Source: an uncultured Subdoligranulum sp. (GTDB taxonomy: Bacteria > Bacillota > Clostridia > Oscillospirales > Ruminococcaceae). From it: 55,209 nt of DNA. Each line of letters starts with the position of its first letter. The stretch's first letter is position 1. Shown here piece by piece: positions 4,737 through 9,352 of this stretch. The position numbers were made by a program, and so were the translations under genes. Location of the stretch: positions 1-55,209 of the forward strand of contig CAJFMB010000007.1 of the NCBI GenBank assembly GCA_904390925.1, given 5' to 3'. Under the pieces are notes generated by a model that was not told where the DNA came from, made no database searches, and was given only the letters and a program-made list of their open reading frames with translations.

Positions 4737-4957
4737 AACAGCATAACGCCGCAGCCTTTTGTGCAACCTGAACCGGGAACTTGTTGCGCTCAGCGTCTTT
4801 CATGTCGGAATTTTTGCCGGACAGCAACTGTTACTTCAAACTTCTCTGACTGCATGCCGCTCTTGGCTATGCACTCTGGCTGCCGCCCTGCGGCGGGAAC
4901 GCGGCAACTCACTTGGCGGCATTTTTGCCGCTGCCTGCGAAAGGAGGCCCACCCGCC
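4737..4957 (+). other. Long 5' leader of the DtxR-family gene
   Basis: About 220 nt lie between the promoter and the ATG. A hairpin GCGGCA-TTTT-TGCCGC sits close to the ribosome site, and several GC-rich inverted segments precede it. I recognise no known riboswitch here. Two short open frames cross the leader but lack ribosome sites. Confidence 0.4.
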
Positions 4958-5356
4958 ATGCGCGCAACGGAATCACGCGAGGACTATCTGGAAGCCATTT
5001 TGATGTTGAGTAAGGAAAAAAACTATGTTCGCAGTGTGGACGTGGCGGATCGTTTGGGCGTGACAAAACCCAGCGTCAGCCGTGCCATCAGCCTGCTGCG
5101 GACCGCTGGCATGATCGCCATGGACCCCCACGATGGAGCCCTAACCCTGACCGAGGAGGGGCGCAAGGTCGCCGAGCGGGTATACGGCCGGCATCTTTTG
5201 CTGACCCGCCTGCTGACCGAGCTGGGGGTCAACCCGACAACTGCCGCGCAGGATGCCTGCCGCATTGAGCATGTGGTCAGCGAGGAAACCATGACCCGCC
5301 TGCGGGAACATCTGGAAAAGCACAGCAGCGCCCAAAAGACCGACGACCAGCAGTAA
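4958..5356 (+). CDS. DtxR/MntR-family metal-dependent regulator
   Basis: A 132-residue repressor-type regulator. The N-terminal winged helix reads SREDYLEAILMLS, then VRSVDVADRLGVTKPSVSRAISLL. The dimerisation and metal-binding part contains LTEEGRKVAERVYGRHLLLTRLLTELGV and DACRIEHVVSEET, whose His and Glu positions match the MntR/IdeR ligand set. It lacks the SH3-like third domain of DtxR, as MntR does. The ATG at 4958 follows AAGGAGG by 10 nt. It stands alone between two terminators. A role in Mn2+ or Fe2+ homeostasis is expected; which metal cannot be told by eye. Confidence 0.88.
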   Translation: MRATESREDYLEAILMLSKEKNYVRSVDVADRLGVTKPSVSRAISLLRTAGMIAMDPHDGALTLTEEGRKVAERVYGRHLLLTRLLTELGVNPTTAAQDACRIEHVVSEETMTRLREHLEKHSSAQKTDDQQ

Positions 5357-5717: not shown

Positions 5718-6428
5718 TTATTTGCGCAAACGCTTATCACAGCGGACTGCCAGCCAGGTGCCCACACTCTGGAACACCTGTACCAGGATCACCAGCAGGG
5801 CGGTGGCCACCACCATGATCAGGTATTTGTACCGGTAGTAACCGTAGTTGATGGCGATCTGACCCAGACCGCCGCCGCCGATGATGCCGGCCATGGCCGA
5901 GTAGCTCAGAATCGTTGTCAGAGCAATGGTCACGTTGGAGATCAGACTGGGCATGCTTTCGGGAACCATGACCTTGGCAATGATCTGGAAGGGGGTGGCG
6001 CCCATGCTCTGGGCGGCCTCCACCACGCCGCCGTCCACCTCACGCAGGCTGGTTTCCACCAGGCGCGCCACAAAGGGGAAGCTGGCGGCCACCAGCGGGA
6101 CAATGGATGCTACCGTGCCGATGGTGGTGCCCAGAATCAGCTGGGCCAGCGGCTGTACCATGATCATCAGGATCAGGAAGGGAACGCTGCGCAGCAGATT
6201 GATGACAATGTTCAAAATCGTCATCAGCCAGCGGGGCAGGGGCAGCAGACCGTTTTTATCGCCCACCACCAGCAGAACGCCCAGCGGCAGCCCGATGACC
6301 AGTGCCAGCAGGGTGGTCAGCGCGGTGGCGTAAAAACTTTCCCAGGTGGCAAAGGGCAGATCCGGCAGTGTGTCCAGCATGGTCTGCCATTCATCGGACG
6401 CGGCAATGGATGCAATCAGTGCGCTCAT
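5718..6428 (-). CDS. metI: Methionine ABC transporter permease
   Basis: A 236-residue membrane permease of the D-methionine/L-methionine ABC importer. It has about five helices and the inner-membrane permease loop EAAQSMGATPFQIIAKVMVPESMP, which contacts the ATPase (EAA motif of the family). It overlaps the metN stop codon by 4 nt (ATGA), so it is translationally coupled. It closes the metQ-metN-metI operon, and a strong terminator lies 45 bp beyond. The order Q-N-I differs from the frequent N-I-Q order. Confidence 0.93.
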   Translation of the reverse strand: MSALIASIAASDEWQTMLDTLPDLPFATWESFYATALTTLLALVIGLPLGVLLVVGDKNGLLPLPRWLMTILNIVINLLRSVPFLILMIMVQPLAQLILGTTIGTVASIVPLVAASFPFVARLVETSLREVDGGVVEAAQSMGATPFQIIAKVMVPESMPSLISNVTIALTTILSYSAMAGIIGGGGLGQIAINYGYYRYKYLIMVVATALLVILVQVFQSVGTWLAVRCDKRLRK

Positions 6429-7435
6429 GCGTGTTCCACCTCCTCAAAGCTCAGGCCCGGATAGGCCCTGATATAGTCAATGGCCCGCTGTGCGGCGGCC
6501 TCGTCCTCCGGCAGGGCCAGCAGCATGCTGCCCAGCGTCTGGCCGTGGACCAGGCGGGTGTCCGCCGCCACAATGGAAACCAGCGCGCCGCACTCGATGG
6601 CCAGGCTGGCCACCAGCGGCTTGTCGGTGGTCTGGGTGCCGTTGAAGGCAACCCGGACCAGCCGGCGCCCGGGCAGAAGCTCGCCCTCGCTGCGGGGGGC
6701 ACCGGCGGGGAATACCAGCCGGCGGGCGGCATCGGTTCTGGGGTTGGAGAAGATTTCCGACACGTCACCCTGTTCCACCACACGGCCGCCGTCCAGGATG
6801 GCCACATGGTTGCAGACTTCCTCCACCACGCTCATCTGGTGGGTGATGATCACCACCGTGATGCCCAGCTCCTGGTTGATTTTCTGGATCAGCTGCAGAA
6901 TCGAGTGGGTGGTGTTGGGGTCCAGGGCACTGGTGGCCTCGTCACACAGAAGCACCTTCGGGTCGGTGGCCAGGGCACGGGCAATGGCAATGCGCTGTTT
7001 CTGTCCGCCGGAAAGCTGTGCCGGGTAGGCGTCCGCCTTGTCCGGCAGACCCACCAGTTCCAGCAGCTGCCGTGCCCGGGCTTCGGCCTGGGCACGGGGC
7101 CGGCCGGCCAGCTCCAGCGGGAAGCAGATGTTTTTCAGGCAGGTGCGCTGCATCAGCAGGTTGAACTGCTGAAAGATCATGGCAATGTCCCGGCGTGCCG
7201 CGCGCAGACCGGCGGGGGACAGACTCTGCATCTGCTGGCCGTTGACGGTGACAGTGCCCTGGTCGGGACGCTCCAGCAGATTGATGCAGCGGACCAGCGT
7301 GGATTTTCCCGCGCCGGACATGCCGATGATGCCGAAAATGTCCCCGTCGCCGATGGACAGATTGATGTCCTCCAACGCGGCCACGGTGCCGTTTGGCGTC
7401 TCGAAGTGCTTGGTAAGGTGTTTAAGCTCGATCAT
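6425..7435 (-). CDS. metN: Methionine ABC transporter ATP-binding protein
   Basis: A 336-residue ATPase. It shows Walker A GMSGAGKST, Q-loop FQQFNLL, signature LSGGQKQRIAIARAL, Walker B VLLCDEATSALD and H-loop VVIITHQM. The C-terminal extension (about 250-336, starting near LPGRRLVRVAFNG) is the NIL/ACT-like domain that binds methionine and inhibits transport in MetN proteins. It starts 63 bp after metQ and is translated with metI. It powers uptake of methionine bound by MetQ. Confidence 0.94.
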   Translation of the reverse strand: MIELKHLTKHFETPNGTVAALEDINLSIGDGDIFGIIGMSGAGKSTLVRCINLLERPDQGTVTVNGQQMQSLSPAGLRAARRDIAMIFQQFNLLMQRTCLKNICFPLELAGRPRAQAEARARQLLELVGLPDKADAYPAQLSGGQKQRIAIARALATDPKVLLCDEATSALDPNTTHSILQLIQKINQELGITVVIITHQMSVVEEVCNHVAILDGGRVVEQGDVSEIFSNPRTDAARRLVFPAGAPRSEGELLPGRRLVRVAFNGTQTTDKPLVASLAIECGALVSIVAADTRLVHGQTLGSMLLALPEDEAAAQRAIDYIRAYPGLSFEEVEHA

Positions 7436-7498: not shown

Positions 7499-8422
7499 TC
7501 AGAACAGCGGAACCACCGCGCCGCCGTAGGTCTCGTTGATGAAATCCCGGACCGCGTCGCTCTGCAAAGCAGCAGCCACAGCCAGGATGACGGGATCATT
7601 CTCCCGGCCTTCCTTCACCACCAGCACGTTGGGGTAGATCTGGGCGGCGTCGGAGTCGGCACTCTCGGTGGCCAGGGCATCCTTGGCGGAGGAGAAACCA
7701 GCCTGGGTGGCGTAGTTACCGTTGATGACGGCCATGTCGGCGCTGGACAGGCTGCGGGGCAGCTGGGCGGCCTCCATCTCCACAATGTCCAGATTCTTGG
7801 GGTTGGAGGTGATGTCCTGCTTGGTGGCGGTCAGGCCGGCGTCGGGGTCCAGCTCAATCAGACCCTGGGCGGCCAGCAGCTGCAGGGCACGGGCTTCGTT
7901 GGAGGTGTCGTTGGGGACCAGGATCTGGGCGCCGTCGGCCAGTTCGTCAATGCTCTTGGTCTTGCCCGGGTACAGGCCCAGAGGCTCGTAGTGGATCTTG
8001 GCCACAGAAACCAGATGGGTGCCGTTCTCGGCGTTGAAGGTGTCCAGATAATTCTGATGCTGGAAGTAGTTGGCGTCAATCTCGCCGTTTTCGGTGGCGG
8101 TGTTGGGCTGGATGTAGTCGGTGAATTCGACGACTTCCAGGTTGATGTCGGCCTGGGCCAGAATATCGGCGGCCACCTTCAGGATCTCGGCATGGGGCGC
8201 CGGGGAGGCGCCCACCTTGACGGTGGTGCCGGCCAGGGACGCATAGTCGATGTTGGGGTCGAAGCCGTCGCCGGTGAACTCAGCCGTCTCCGAGGAAGCG
8301 GCGGAGCCGGAGGTGGCGGAAGAAGTGGAATCCGGAGTGCTGCCGGAATTGGAACCGGCGCCGCAGGCAGCCAGGCTGACGGCCAGCACCCCGGCCAGCA
8401 GGGCAGAGATCAGTTTTTTCAT
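7499..8422 (-). CDS. metQ: MetQ substrate-binding lipoprotein
   Basis: A 307-residue NlpA/MetQ-family lipoprotein. The signal peptide ends in lipobox LAAC with lipidated C20, followed by a Ser/Thr-rich linker (about 21-50). The mature domain begins with TTVKVGASPAPHAEILKVAADIL, then YIQPNTATENGEIDANYFQHQNYLD, both diagnostic of methionine-binding proteins. It captures methionine outside the membrane and delivers it to MetNI. It is first in its operon and is preceded by a leader of about 270 nt with a Met-rich peptide and a terminator. Confidence 0.93.
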   Translation of the reverse strand: MKKLISALLAGVLAVSLAACGAGSNSGSTPDSTSSATSGSAASSETAEFTGDGFDPNIDYASLAGTTVKVGASPAPHAEILKVAADILAQADINLEVVEFTDYIQPNTATENGEIDANYFQHQNYLDTFNAENGTHLVSVAKIHYEPLGLYPGKTKSIDELADGAQILVPNDTSNEARALQLLAAQGLIELDPDAGLTATKQDITSNPKNLDIVEMEAAQLPRSLSSADMAVINGNYATQAGFSSAKDALATESADSDAAQIYPNVLVVKEGRENDPVILAVAAALQSDAVRDFINETYGGAVVPLF

Positions 8423-8500
8423 GGGTAAATCCTCCTGTTAGCAAGTATTGGATGGAAAAAATGTGACAAACCGCAGCGCCCCTCTCGAGAACGAGGCGCA

Positions 8501-8545
8501 AAACAAAAGAAAAAGGGCAGAGCGCCTTTGCAGCGCCCTGCCCTT
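8501..8545 (-). terminator. Intrinsic terminator inside the metQNI leader (attenuator)
   Basis: On the minus strand AAGGGCAGGGCGC (8545-8533) pairs with GCGCTCTGCCC (8525-8515) and is followed by TTTTTCTTTTGTTTT. It lies between the promoter and metQ, 14 nt after the stop codon of the leader peptide, so it would end transcription before the operon unless overridden. Confidence 0.8.
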
Positions 8546-8559
8546 GAACTCCCTGCTTT

Positions 8560-8649
8560 TCACACGCCGGAAAATGCGCACAGGGAAGCAAGTACAGGTT
8601 GCCGCAGCAAACTGCACATGCACATCATCATGCCATCACGACGGTACAT
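8560..8649 (-). CDS. Met/Cys-rich leader peptide of metQNI (29 aa)
   Basis: A short frame not matching any family I know. It has a good ribosome site (GGAAGGAG, 9 nt before the ATG at 8649) and 29 codons. Codons 7 to 12 read Met-Met-Met-Cys-Met-Cys, four methionine and two cysteine codons in six. The UGA stop falls 14 nt before the stem of an intrinsic terminator. This is the arrangement of ribosome-mediated attenuation leaders (trp and his leaders in proteobacteria). A ribosome stalled for Met-tRNA or Cys-tRNA would alter the fold and let RNA polymerase pass. Function is inferred from placement and codon content; translation is untested. Confidence 0.65.
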   Translation of the reverse strand: MYRRDGMMMCMCSLLRQPVLASLCAFSGV

Positions 8650-8669
8650 ATACGGCAACTCCTTCCCTG
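8581..8669 (-). promoter_or_regulatory. Long-range leader hairpin enclosing the leader peptide start
   Basis: On the RNA, CAGGGAAG and GTTGCCG (8669-8653) pair perfectly with CGGCAAC and CTTCCCTG (8604-8581), giving 7 + 8 bp with a small bulge. The 5' arm contains the ribosome site of the leader peptide and the loop holds its first 15 codons. The 3' arm can instead pair with CAGGGA...CAAG (about 8557-8544) just before the terminator, an antiterminator-like alternative. Confidence 0.5.
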
Positions 8670-8702
8670 AACGCCGCCCGACAGGCGGTTTTGTCATTTG
8701 CA

Positions 8703-8731
8703 AGTATAGCCGCATCCCTGTGATCTGTCAA
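8703..8731 (-). promoter_or_regulatory. Promoter of metQNI
   Basis: TTGACA (8731-8726), 17 bp, TATACT (8708-8703) on the minus strand, close to consensus. Transcription would start near 8696, about 270 nt ahead of metQ. Confidence 0.85.
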
Positions 8732-8840
8732 CCTTTTGGCGCAAAAAAACCAAAAACAGGCAAAATTTGCGCGATTTTCCGCAGAAAAAAGCCCGAATGT
8801 TGCATAAACTGTACGATATGTTCAAATTCGGCACTTTCCC

Positions 8841-8869: not shown

Positions 8870-8929
8870 ATATAAGCCAATTACCGGGCCTGTCAGCAGG
8901 CCGACGGAATGTATGGGAGAGTTTACTGC

Positions 8930-9352
8930 ATGAAATTTTCCACCAAGGACCGCTATGCGCTGCGTCTGATGCTGGAACTGGCGGCGCACAAACCGGACGA
9001 GTTTGTGCCCCTCAAGACGGTCAGCGAAAATCAGGGCATCAGCCTGAAATATCTGGAGCAGATCATCACTCCCCTGTCCCGGGCAGGGCTGGTGGTCAGC
9101 GGCCGGGGCAGCCAGGGCGGCTACCGGCTGGCCAGGCCTGCTGCCCAGTACACGGCAGGGGAGATCCTGCGTGCCATCGAGGGGGAACTGACTTCCATTC
9201 CCTGCCTGGCCTCCACCGCCGAGGAATGCCCGCGGCGCAATCTCTGCCAGACGCTGGGATTCTGGGCCGGACTGAATGCTGCCATCAACCGCTATGTGGA
9301 CAGCGTCACGCTGGAGGATCTGTGCCGTGCCCCCGATGCGGCCAGCCTGTGA
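8930..9352 (+). CDS. Rrf2-family transcriptional regulator with three cysteines
   Basis: A 140-residue regulator of the IscR/CymR family. The winged helix covers MKFSTKDRYALRLMLELA, then ISLKYLEQIITPLSRAGLVVSGRGSQGGYRLARP. Three cysteines follow in a C-X7-C-X5-C arrangement (IPC...EEC...NLC), resembling the IscR Fe-S ligand set (C-X5-C-X5-C). Its divergence from metQNI recalls CymR control of sulfur genes, but classic CymR lacks this cysteine trio. It may sense Fe-S or redox state and act on metQNI, on itself, or elsewhere. The ATG at 8930 is chosen for GGGAGAG upstream; an earlier in-frame ATG at 8909 has no ribosome site. Confidence 0.85.
   Translation: MKFSTKDRYALRLMLELAAHKPDEFVPLKTVSENQGISLKYLEQIITPLSRAGLVVSGRGSQGGYRLARPAAQYTAGEILRAIEGELTSIPCLASTAEECPRRNLCQTLGFWAGLNAAINRYVDSVTLEDLCRAPDAASL

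Follow-up and report, generated by a model that had tools for sequence, protein, structure and literature searches.

A probable methionine- and cysteine-codon transcription attenuator upstream of metQNI in Gemmiger

The metQNI methionine transporter genes of the genome studied here are very probably preceded by a classical ribosome-mediated transcription attenuator, which would be specific for methionine and secondarily for cysteine. We have analysed a stretch of 55,209 nt from an uncultured Subdoligranulum sp. (assembly GCA_904390925.1, contig CAJFMB010000007.1), which we call the window; the relatives that carry the same leader belong to the genus Gemmiger. The sequence elements of the attenuator are present and conserved, and the sequences can form three mutually exclusive pairings, 1:2, 2:3 and 3:4, which is the layout of classical ribosome-mediated attenuation. 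Riboswitches or T-boxes usually do this job, SAM riboswitches and Met T-boxes being well known in the Bacillota. On the minus strand of the window, the order is promoter (8731-8703), leader frame (8649-8560), terminator (8545-8513) and metQNI (8422-5718). The features are the following:

8703-8731, minus strand: promoter, with -35 TTGACA (8731-8726), a 17-nt spacer and -10 TATACT (8708-8703), matching 11 of the 12 sigma-70 consensus positions.
8659-8667, minus strand: leader ribosome-binding site, SD-like GGGAAGGAG, with the ATG 9 nt downstream.
8560-8649, minus strand: putative leader peptide of 29 codons, MYRRDGMMMCMCSLLRQPVLASLCAFSGV, then stop (translated frame).
8614-8631, minus strand: control codons 7-12, Met-Met-Met-Cys-Met-Cys.
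8588-8621, minus strand: hairpin 1:2, with arms 8621-8607 and 8602-8588, in which control codons pair with region 2.
8590-8606, minus strand: region 2, the 5' side of the antiterminator, within the leader frame and directly after the Met/Cys run; it forms a duplex with the 5' arm of the terminator.
8529-8545, minus strand: region 3, the 3' side of the antiterminator according to the pairing analysis, mostly sharing its bases with the 5' arm and loop of the terminator.
8513-8545, minus strand: predicted intrinsic terminator 3:4, starting 14 nt past the leader stop codon and followed by a U-rich tract from 8512.
7499-8422, minus strand: metQ, methionine-binding lipoprotein (NlpA lipoprotein), PF03180 above its cut-off; best NCBIfam match MetQ, under NCBI's cut-off.
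6425-7435, minus strand: metN, ATPase with a C-terminal NIL domain, PF00005 and PF09383 above their cut-offs; best NCBIfam match TIGR02314 MetN, under NCBI's cut-off.
5718-6428, minus strand: metI, permease, PF00528 above its cut-off; best NCBIfam match MetI, under NCBI's cut-off.
8909-9352, plus strand: divergent Rrf2-family regulator, IscR/CymR-like by profile matches under their cut-offs.

Another gene, for an MntR/DtxR-like metal-dependent regulator, is found at 4913-5356 on the plus strand, just past metI.

An initial annotation of this DNA had described the near-consensus promoter, the 29-codon frame with its ribosome site, the run of Met and Cys at codons 7-12 and the terminator 14 nt after the leader stop. 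All of these are found at the positions given above. The run is not a chance frame, being unique in the window and conserved across the genus: Among the 635 frames of 10-70 amino acids in all six frames of the window, the leader is the only one with six Met or Cys within six residues, followed by one frame with five and three with four. The evidence for the terminator is its conservation, since a simple scan is weak on its own: Two terminators are found in the region, with 1.4 expected in shuffled sequences.

A comparison of relatives, which had been suggested as a check, finds the short frame with its Met run in all 31 genus genomes with a close metQ, and the terminator in 29 of 29. The genus set contains 35 genomes, including the window's own, and 31 of them have a metQ match at E < 1e-110. 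The metQ of G011 is more distant (64% identity across residues 66-305), and no metQ match is found in G018, G024 and G028, genomes which are 71-87% complete. Thirty of the 31 leaders were detected by the exact pattern ATGATGATGTGYATGTNCA, which occurs a single time in each of these genomes, while its reversed control never appears. The remaining leader is a variant, found in G032, which reads MTGFERRDAMMMRMCSMLRQPAQLSPCLV and was missed by the pattern. The pattern shares its contig with metQ in 29 of the 30 genomes, where it precedes the gene by 200-350 nt; in G001 the leader (L039) and metQ are each at contig ends. The exact leader pattern is absent from G018, G024 and G028, and the divergent metQ of G011 is not preceded by such a leader. 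Among 391 class-member genomes, the exact MMMCMC pattern is found in the window's own genome only.

The Met codons are the constant part of the control run: Met7, Met8, Met9 and Met11 are invariant in all 31 leaders. The Cys codons are softer. Cys10 is kept in 30 leaders (Arg in G032) and Cys12 in 25, with Tyr in L035, L036, L040, L049, L051 and L058. The reading of the initial annotation, attenuation for methionine and perhaps cysteine, is supported, with the refinement that methionine is the better supported signal and cysteine a secondary one.

We also looked for the attenuator at further methionine genes of the genus and rejected a second copy, the exact pattern being single in each genome that bears it. 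Eight stretches upstream of metY-like genes, from seven genus genomes, match no Rfam family at threshold; seven of them have no Met/Cys-rich frame, and the eighth has a weak one.

Between the terminator and metQ, 26 of 29 genus loci (L046 and L033, for example) and also G032 present a second conserved short frame. It is not found in the window, nor in L045, L051 and L056. This frame ends in Q-P-G-(V/I)-R-M or R-M-C.., often as M(K/E)xxPx(C/Y)xQPGVRM, its Arg codon is CGA in all 26 loci, and it overlaps the start of metQ in L035, L040 and L049. It resembles the PGARCMCRRMC end of the metL leader of Streptomyces lividans. Among 245 genomes which belong to the order but not to the genus set, none has the corresponding DNA pattern, and it is also absent from the window's genome. 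It may be a second leader or an arrest peptide acting on translation.

The terminator begins 10-19 nt past the leader stop in all 29 loci with enough sequence (L039 is cut). The antiterminator was not described in the initial annotation, which had proposed a layout of ribosome-mediated attenuation from the Met run and the terminator; we find it, and it is conserved. In 29 sequences, the codons past the Met/Cys run pair with the 5' arm of the terminator with energies from -14.8 to -27.8 kcal/mol. The duplex of the window has -20.7 kcal/mol, and 18 of 200 synonymous recodings are equally good. The native antiterminator is equalled by no more than 30 of 200 random synonymous recodings in 26 of the 29 sequences. 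The other three, L037, L043 and L044, have a weak antiterminator (-14.8), equalled by over half of the recodings. When partners were permuted over the 23 distinct pairs, 41 of 20,000 permutations were as good as the real pairing, a test in which, as in the shuffles below, shared descent stays in the data.

Helices were counted in an alignment of 28 distinct sequences, the three structures having been written from these same sequences. Terminator 3:4 has 92.2% of its cells paired, with five pairs changed on both sides (29 cells so changed). For antiterminator 2:3 the figures are 94.0% and one such pair, column pair 78-159, which takes U-A, G-C, U-G, C-G and G-U. Hairpin 1:2 has 93.7% and also one pair changed on both sides. 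Controls slid by 1-3 columns have 22-63% of cells paired, a comparison inflated by the origin of the structures. The percentage paired and the covariation score were compared with 500 shuffles of the 3' letters, a control which is inflated by relatedness: None is as high for 3:4 and 2:3, while for 1:2 four and three shuffles, respectively, are as high. Counts of pairs changed on both sides do not exceed those in the shuffles, of which 109 (3:4), 498 (2:3) and 479 (1:2) of 500 are as high, so 2:3 and 1:2 are supported by the retention of pairing, where most changes affect one side. Helices 1:2 and 3:4 were also recovered by RNAalifold without guidance.

Ribosome stalls were modelled in 29 sequences. 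The 3' edge of the ribosome was assumed to lie 12 nt past the first base of the A site, and the free RNA was folded up to the end of region 3; we asked whether at least half of the terminator arm is paired with region 2. The model predicts this in all 29 sequences for stalls at Met7, Met8, Met9, Cys10 and Met11, in 28 at Cys12, in 14 at codon 13, in one at codon 14 and in none at codons 15, 16, 18, 20 and the stop. Therefore the predicted switch point coincides with the end of the Met/Cys run. Cys12, the most variable control codon, is also the one whose stall would begin to encroach on region 2. When any upstream partner is counted, the modelled arm is paired in 2-9 of the 29 sequences for ribosomes at codons 14 to 20 and in none at the stop; at codon 20, the model has half or more of region 3 paired with upstream bases outside region 2 in nine. 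Naked leader RNA, with no ribosome, would form the antiterminator before region 4 exists in 22 of 29 sequences. Once region 4 is present, the terminator is preferred at equilibrium in every modelled state (means 0.88-0.97), so the control must be kinetic. A ribosome on the stop codon (8562-8560) would reach to about 8550 and stop just short of the terminator, which begins at 8545.

As for ribosome stalling, its coupling to transcription, the efficiency of termination and the amino acid sensed, we infer the following. RNA polymerase would start near 8696, and a ribosome would translate the leader. With ample Met-tRNA, and Cys-tRNA, the ribosome would run past codons 7-12, sweep region 2 (codons 15-20) and reach the stop, where it would leave the terminator free; 3:4 would form and metQNI would be off. 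When charging with Met (or Cys) drops, the ribosome would wait on a Met or Cys codon, where it would cover region 1 wholly or in part and leave region 2 free. The latter would then pair with region 3 while region 4 is still to be synthesised; the terminator would be blocked and metQNI transcribed. Those features of an attenuator which we have tried and which can be looked for in sequence are all found: a short frame with a run of codons for amino acids of the pathway (31 of 31 leaders, translation being putative), an intrinsic terminator between the leader and the first gene (29 of 29, with compensating changes) and an exclusive antiterminator which, in the model, would be freed by a ribosome on the control codons, although it is weak in L037, L043 and L044. 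The response to starvation is a prediction.

Other explanations may be considered. The leader peptide might itself stall the ribosome on sensing free Met, SAM or cysteine, Met and Cys being then an arrest motif and not hungry codons. Such nascent-peptide arrest would agree with the residues past the run (LRQP..A..C), which are also conserved in most clades. Nevertheless, this stretch of residues is encoded by the antiterminator strand, which can account for its being conserved, and it varies in four leaders. In L056 it reads VLWHSVPVSPC, yet the pairing is -17.2 kcal/mol and only 12 of 200 recodings are as good; in L037, L043 and L044, where the pairing is weak, it reads MMRKRPVPAF. Besides, the Met/Cys-rich leaders found at other methionine genes share their composition with this one but have no common C-terminal motif. 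We consider arrest unlikely. It is also quite unlikely that the leader and terminator are real while the promoter is mainly under the divergent Rrf2-family regulator, the attenuator being minor or constitutive. A gene of the Rrf2 family is found upstream, in divergent orientation, at 28 of 30 genus loci, and the matches of the regulator include CymR and IscR, both under their cut-offs. On the other hand, the same hexamers and spacer, TTGACA-17-TATACT, make up the promoter at all 30 genus pattern loci, the recurrent ACCATATTTGTAGGAAATT-like element seen by eye near the Rrf2 gene start is found in one clade and well upstream of the -35, and conservation of three exclusive helices would be left unexplained. 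Control by Rrf2 and the attenuator are compatible and can coexist.

The least probable explanation, which we consider highly unlikely, is that the leader binds a ligand, as a riboswitch, T-box or similar element, and has its Met-rich frame by chance. Both types of element do occur in the genus: SAM riboswitches are present in 32 of the 35 genomes, one in each, and T-boxes in all 35, above the Rfam cut-off in at least 30 among the matches listed. None of the 32 SAM riboswitches is located at metQ; that of the window's genome precedes metK (named by eye). Neither element is found at the metQ leaders of the window and G032, the two leaders scanned with Rfam. No family matches the whole window at the gathering threshold. 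With E up to 10, the region 8400-8740 gives 14 sub-threshold matches, none of them a riboswitch or T-box, and the covariance models of the SAM-I riboswitch (RF00162) and the T-box (RF00230) have no match there. The initial annotation had noted the lack of both at this leader, and the search with riboswitch models agrees. Its remark that attenuation would be an unusual control for this transporter needs a refinement: The control is not unique, since Met/Cys leaders are also found before other methionine genes.

Scanning the named genome collection gives 78 loci, of which we took 27, by title and peptide, as Gemmiger or close kin and 51 as others. From these 51 we picked 26 by hand and found a downstream frame for 25; the proteins of 20 were scanned, leaving out L068, L081, L092, L093 and L134 (L119 is cut). 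Judged by the best NCBIfam match, 16 of the 20 are sulphur amino acid genes:

MetN, under the equivalog cut-off: L064, L077, L084, L089, L095, L125, L137.
MetQ, under the equivalog cut-off: L099, L131, L136.
O-acetylhomoserine sulfhydrylase: L067, L083, L105 (second gene), L107.
MetX, under the equivalog cut-off: L074.
CysD: L063.
Other genes: L115, oligopeptide-binding protein; L076, amidohydrolase; L101, DnaQ-like exonuclease; L123 (Brachybacterium), regulator-like protein.

By their protein starts, L093 nearly matches L077 and L134 nearly matches L107. Many of the remaining pattern loci lie within long frames and look like chance. Hosts outside the genus include Lachnospiraceae, Oscillospiraceae, other Clostridia, Erysipelotrichaceae, Porphyromonadaceae, Flavobacteriia, Prolixibacter, Christiangramia, Synergistaceae, Kapaibacterium and an actinomycete. 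Two particular cases may be mentioned. The metQ locus L131 (6528-6890, Lachnospiraceae) has, by eye, two Met/Cys frames in series, the first with a terminator and then MKIKTNIIQKQTGTLRMCMCMCK. Four Brachybacterium contigs (L081, L091, L092 and L123) share MMRSMMMCMCMMHRQPSL or a near-copy; these frames overlap longer frames on the opposite strand, and a regulator-like frame follows in three.

A survey free of any pattern covered 90 of the 119 listed metN-like matches of class members, which include the window's own metN and weaker MetN-like proteins; four were dropped because no start was found, leaving 86 upstream regions. Short frames with at least four Met or Cys in eight residues are found in seven of the 86, versus two on the reverse strand and 1.2 in shuffles; with at least five, the numbers are five, zero and 0.07. 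Forty of these loci were scanned with Rfam: Four have a T-box at threshold and none a SAM riboswitch. Structure was tested in 28 hand-chosen leaders from outside the genus, 22 from the 51 pattern loci and six from the metN survey. Twenty-six of them, all but L105 and L119, have a predicted terminator, which lies at most 61 nt past the stop. Nine of the 26 have a significant antiterminator and 17 do not; with the tested stretch extended to the terminator the number is still nine, versus two for control stretches. The layout thus recurs outside the genus, at sulphur amino acid genes of other phyla too, with an antiterminator supported in only part of those leaders.

To our knowledge, methionine is missing from the amino acids for which leader-peptide attenuation is known, and a conserved three-helix attenuator with Met/Cys codons fills this gap. 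It suggests that two signals operate in one genome, SAM for metK and Met/Cys charging for import. It also raises the question of how attenuation can operate when the signal that it reads is required for initiation as well, and the same signature can be searched for in other phyla. We tentatively propose, with slightly more doubt than confidence, that Met/Cys-codon attenuation is a third general control of sulphur amino acid genes, beside SAM riboswitches and Met T-boxes. It would have arisen repeatedly (Bacillota, Bacteroidota, Synergistota and others) before metN, metQ, metY, metX and cysD, and would read the charging of Met and Cys together. As Met is also the initiator, a naked leader would be biased to readthrough, and failed initiation would also leave the importer on.

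Attenuation of the same kind for other amino acids appears in Bacillota in the his leaders and in a leucine-rich attenuator reportedly found in S. aureus (PMC5794164). Histidine leader peptides are reported in Firmicutes (PMC2965389). For Actinobacteria, the available part of PMC1262725 describes cysteine-codon leaders before cys operons. They are also leader peptides for a sulphur amino acid but differ in having Cys runs and no terminators found, and no conserved RNA structures are reported there for methionine operons. A Met-responsive 5'UTR has been described in Xanthomonas, where the word leader is not used (PMC6230763), and leader-like short frames are mentioned in general terms for Bacteroides (PMC7366714). 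The literature searched, outside which most subscription papers fell, gave no further Met leader-peptide attenuator beyond the following one.

A Met/Cys leader, metL, before metNIQ was proposed earlier in Streptomyces lividans TK24 (PMC8079986). As far as the available text describes it, it is also a short leader frame containing Met and Cys, MSTTSDRTPATEATTTPGARCMCRRMCAF, ahead of the transporter operon. It differs in its leaderless transcript and in having no typical terminator according to its authors, termination being unclear, and that part of the description includes neither an antiterminator nor comparative support. An SD, a terminator and alternative helices that are conserved distinguish the Gemmiger leader from metL.

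The Gemmiger leader also resembles attenuators of the classical trp/his/leu type, which likewise have control codons, a 1:2 hairpin, a 2:3 antiterminator, a 3:4 terminator and a promoter-proximal leader. It differs from them in that its control codons are Met and Cys and the amino acid which it would sense is also the initiator. With region 2 placed within the leader frame, some 28 nt ahead of the stop codon, part of this region would stay unmasked by a ribosome that has reached the stop.
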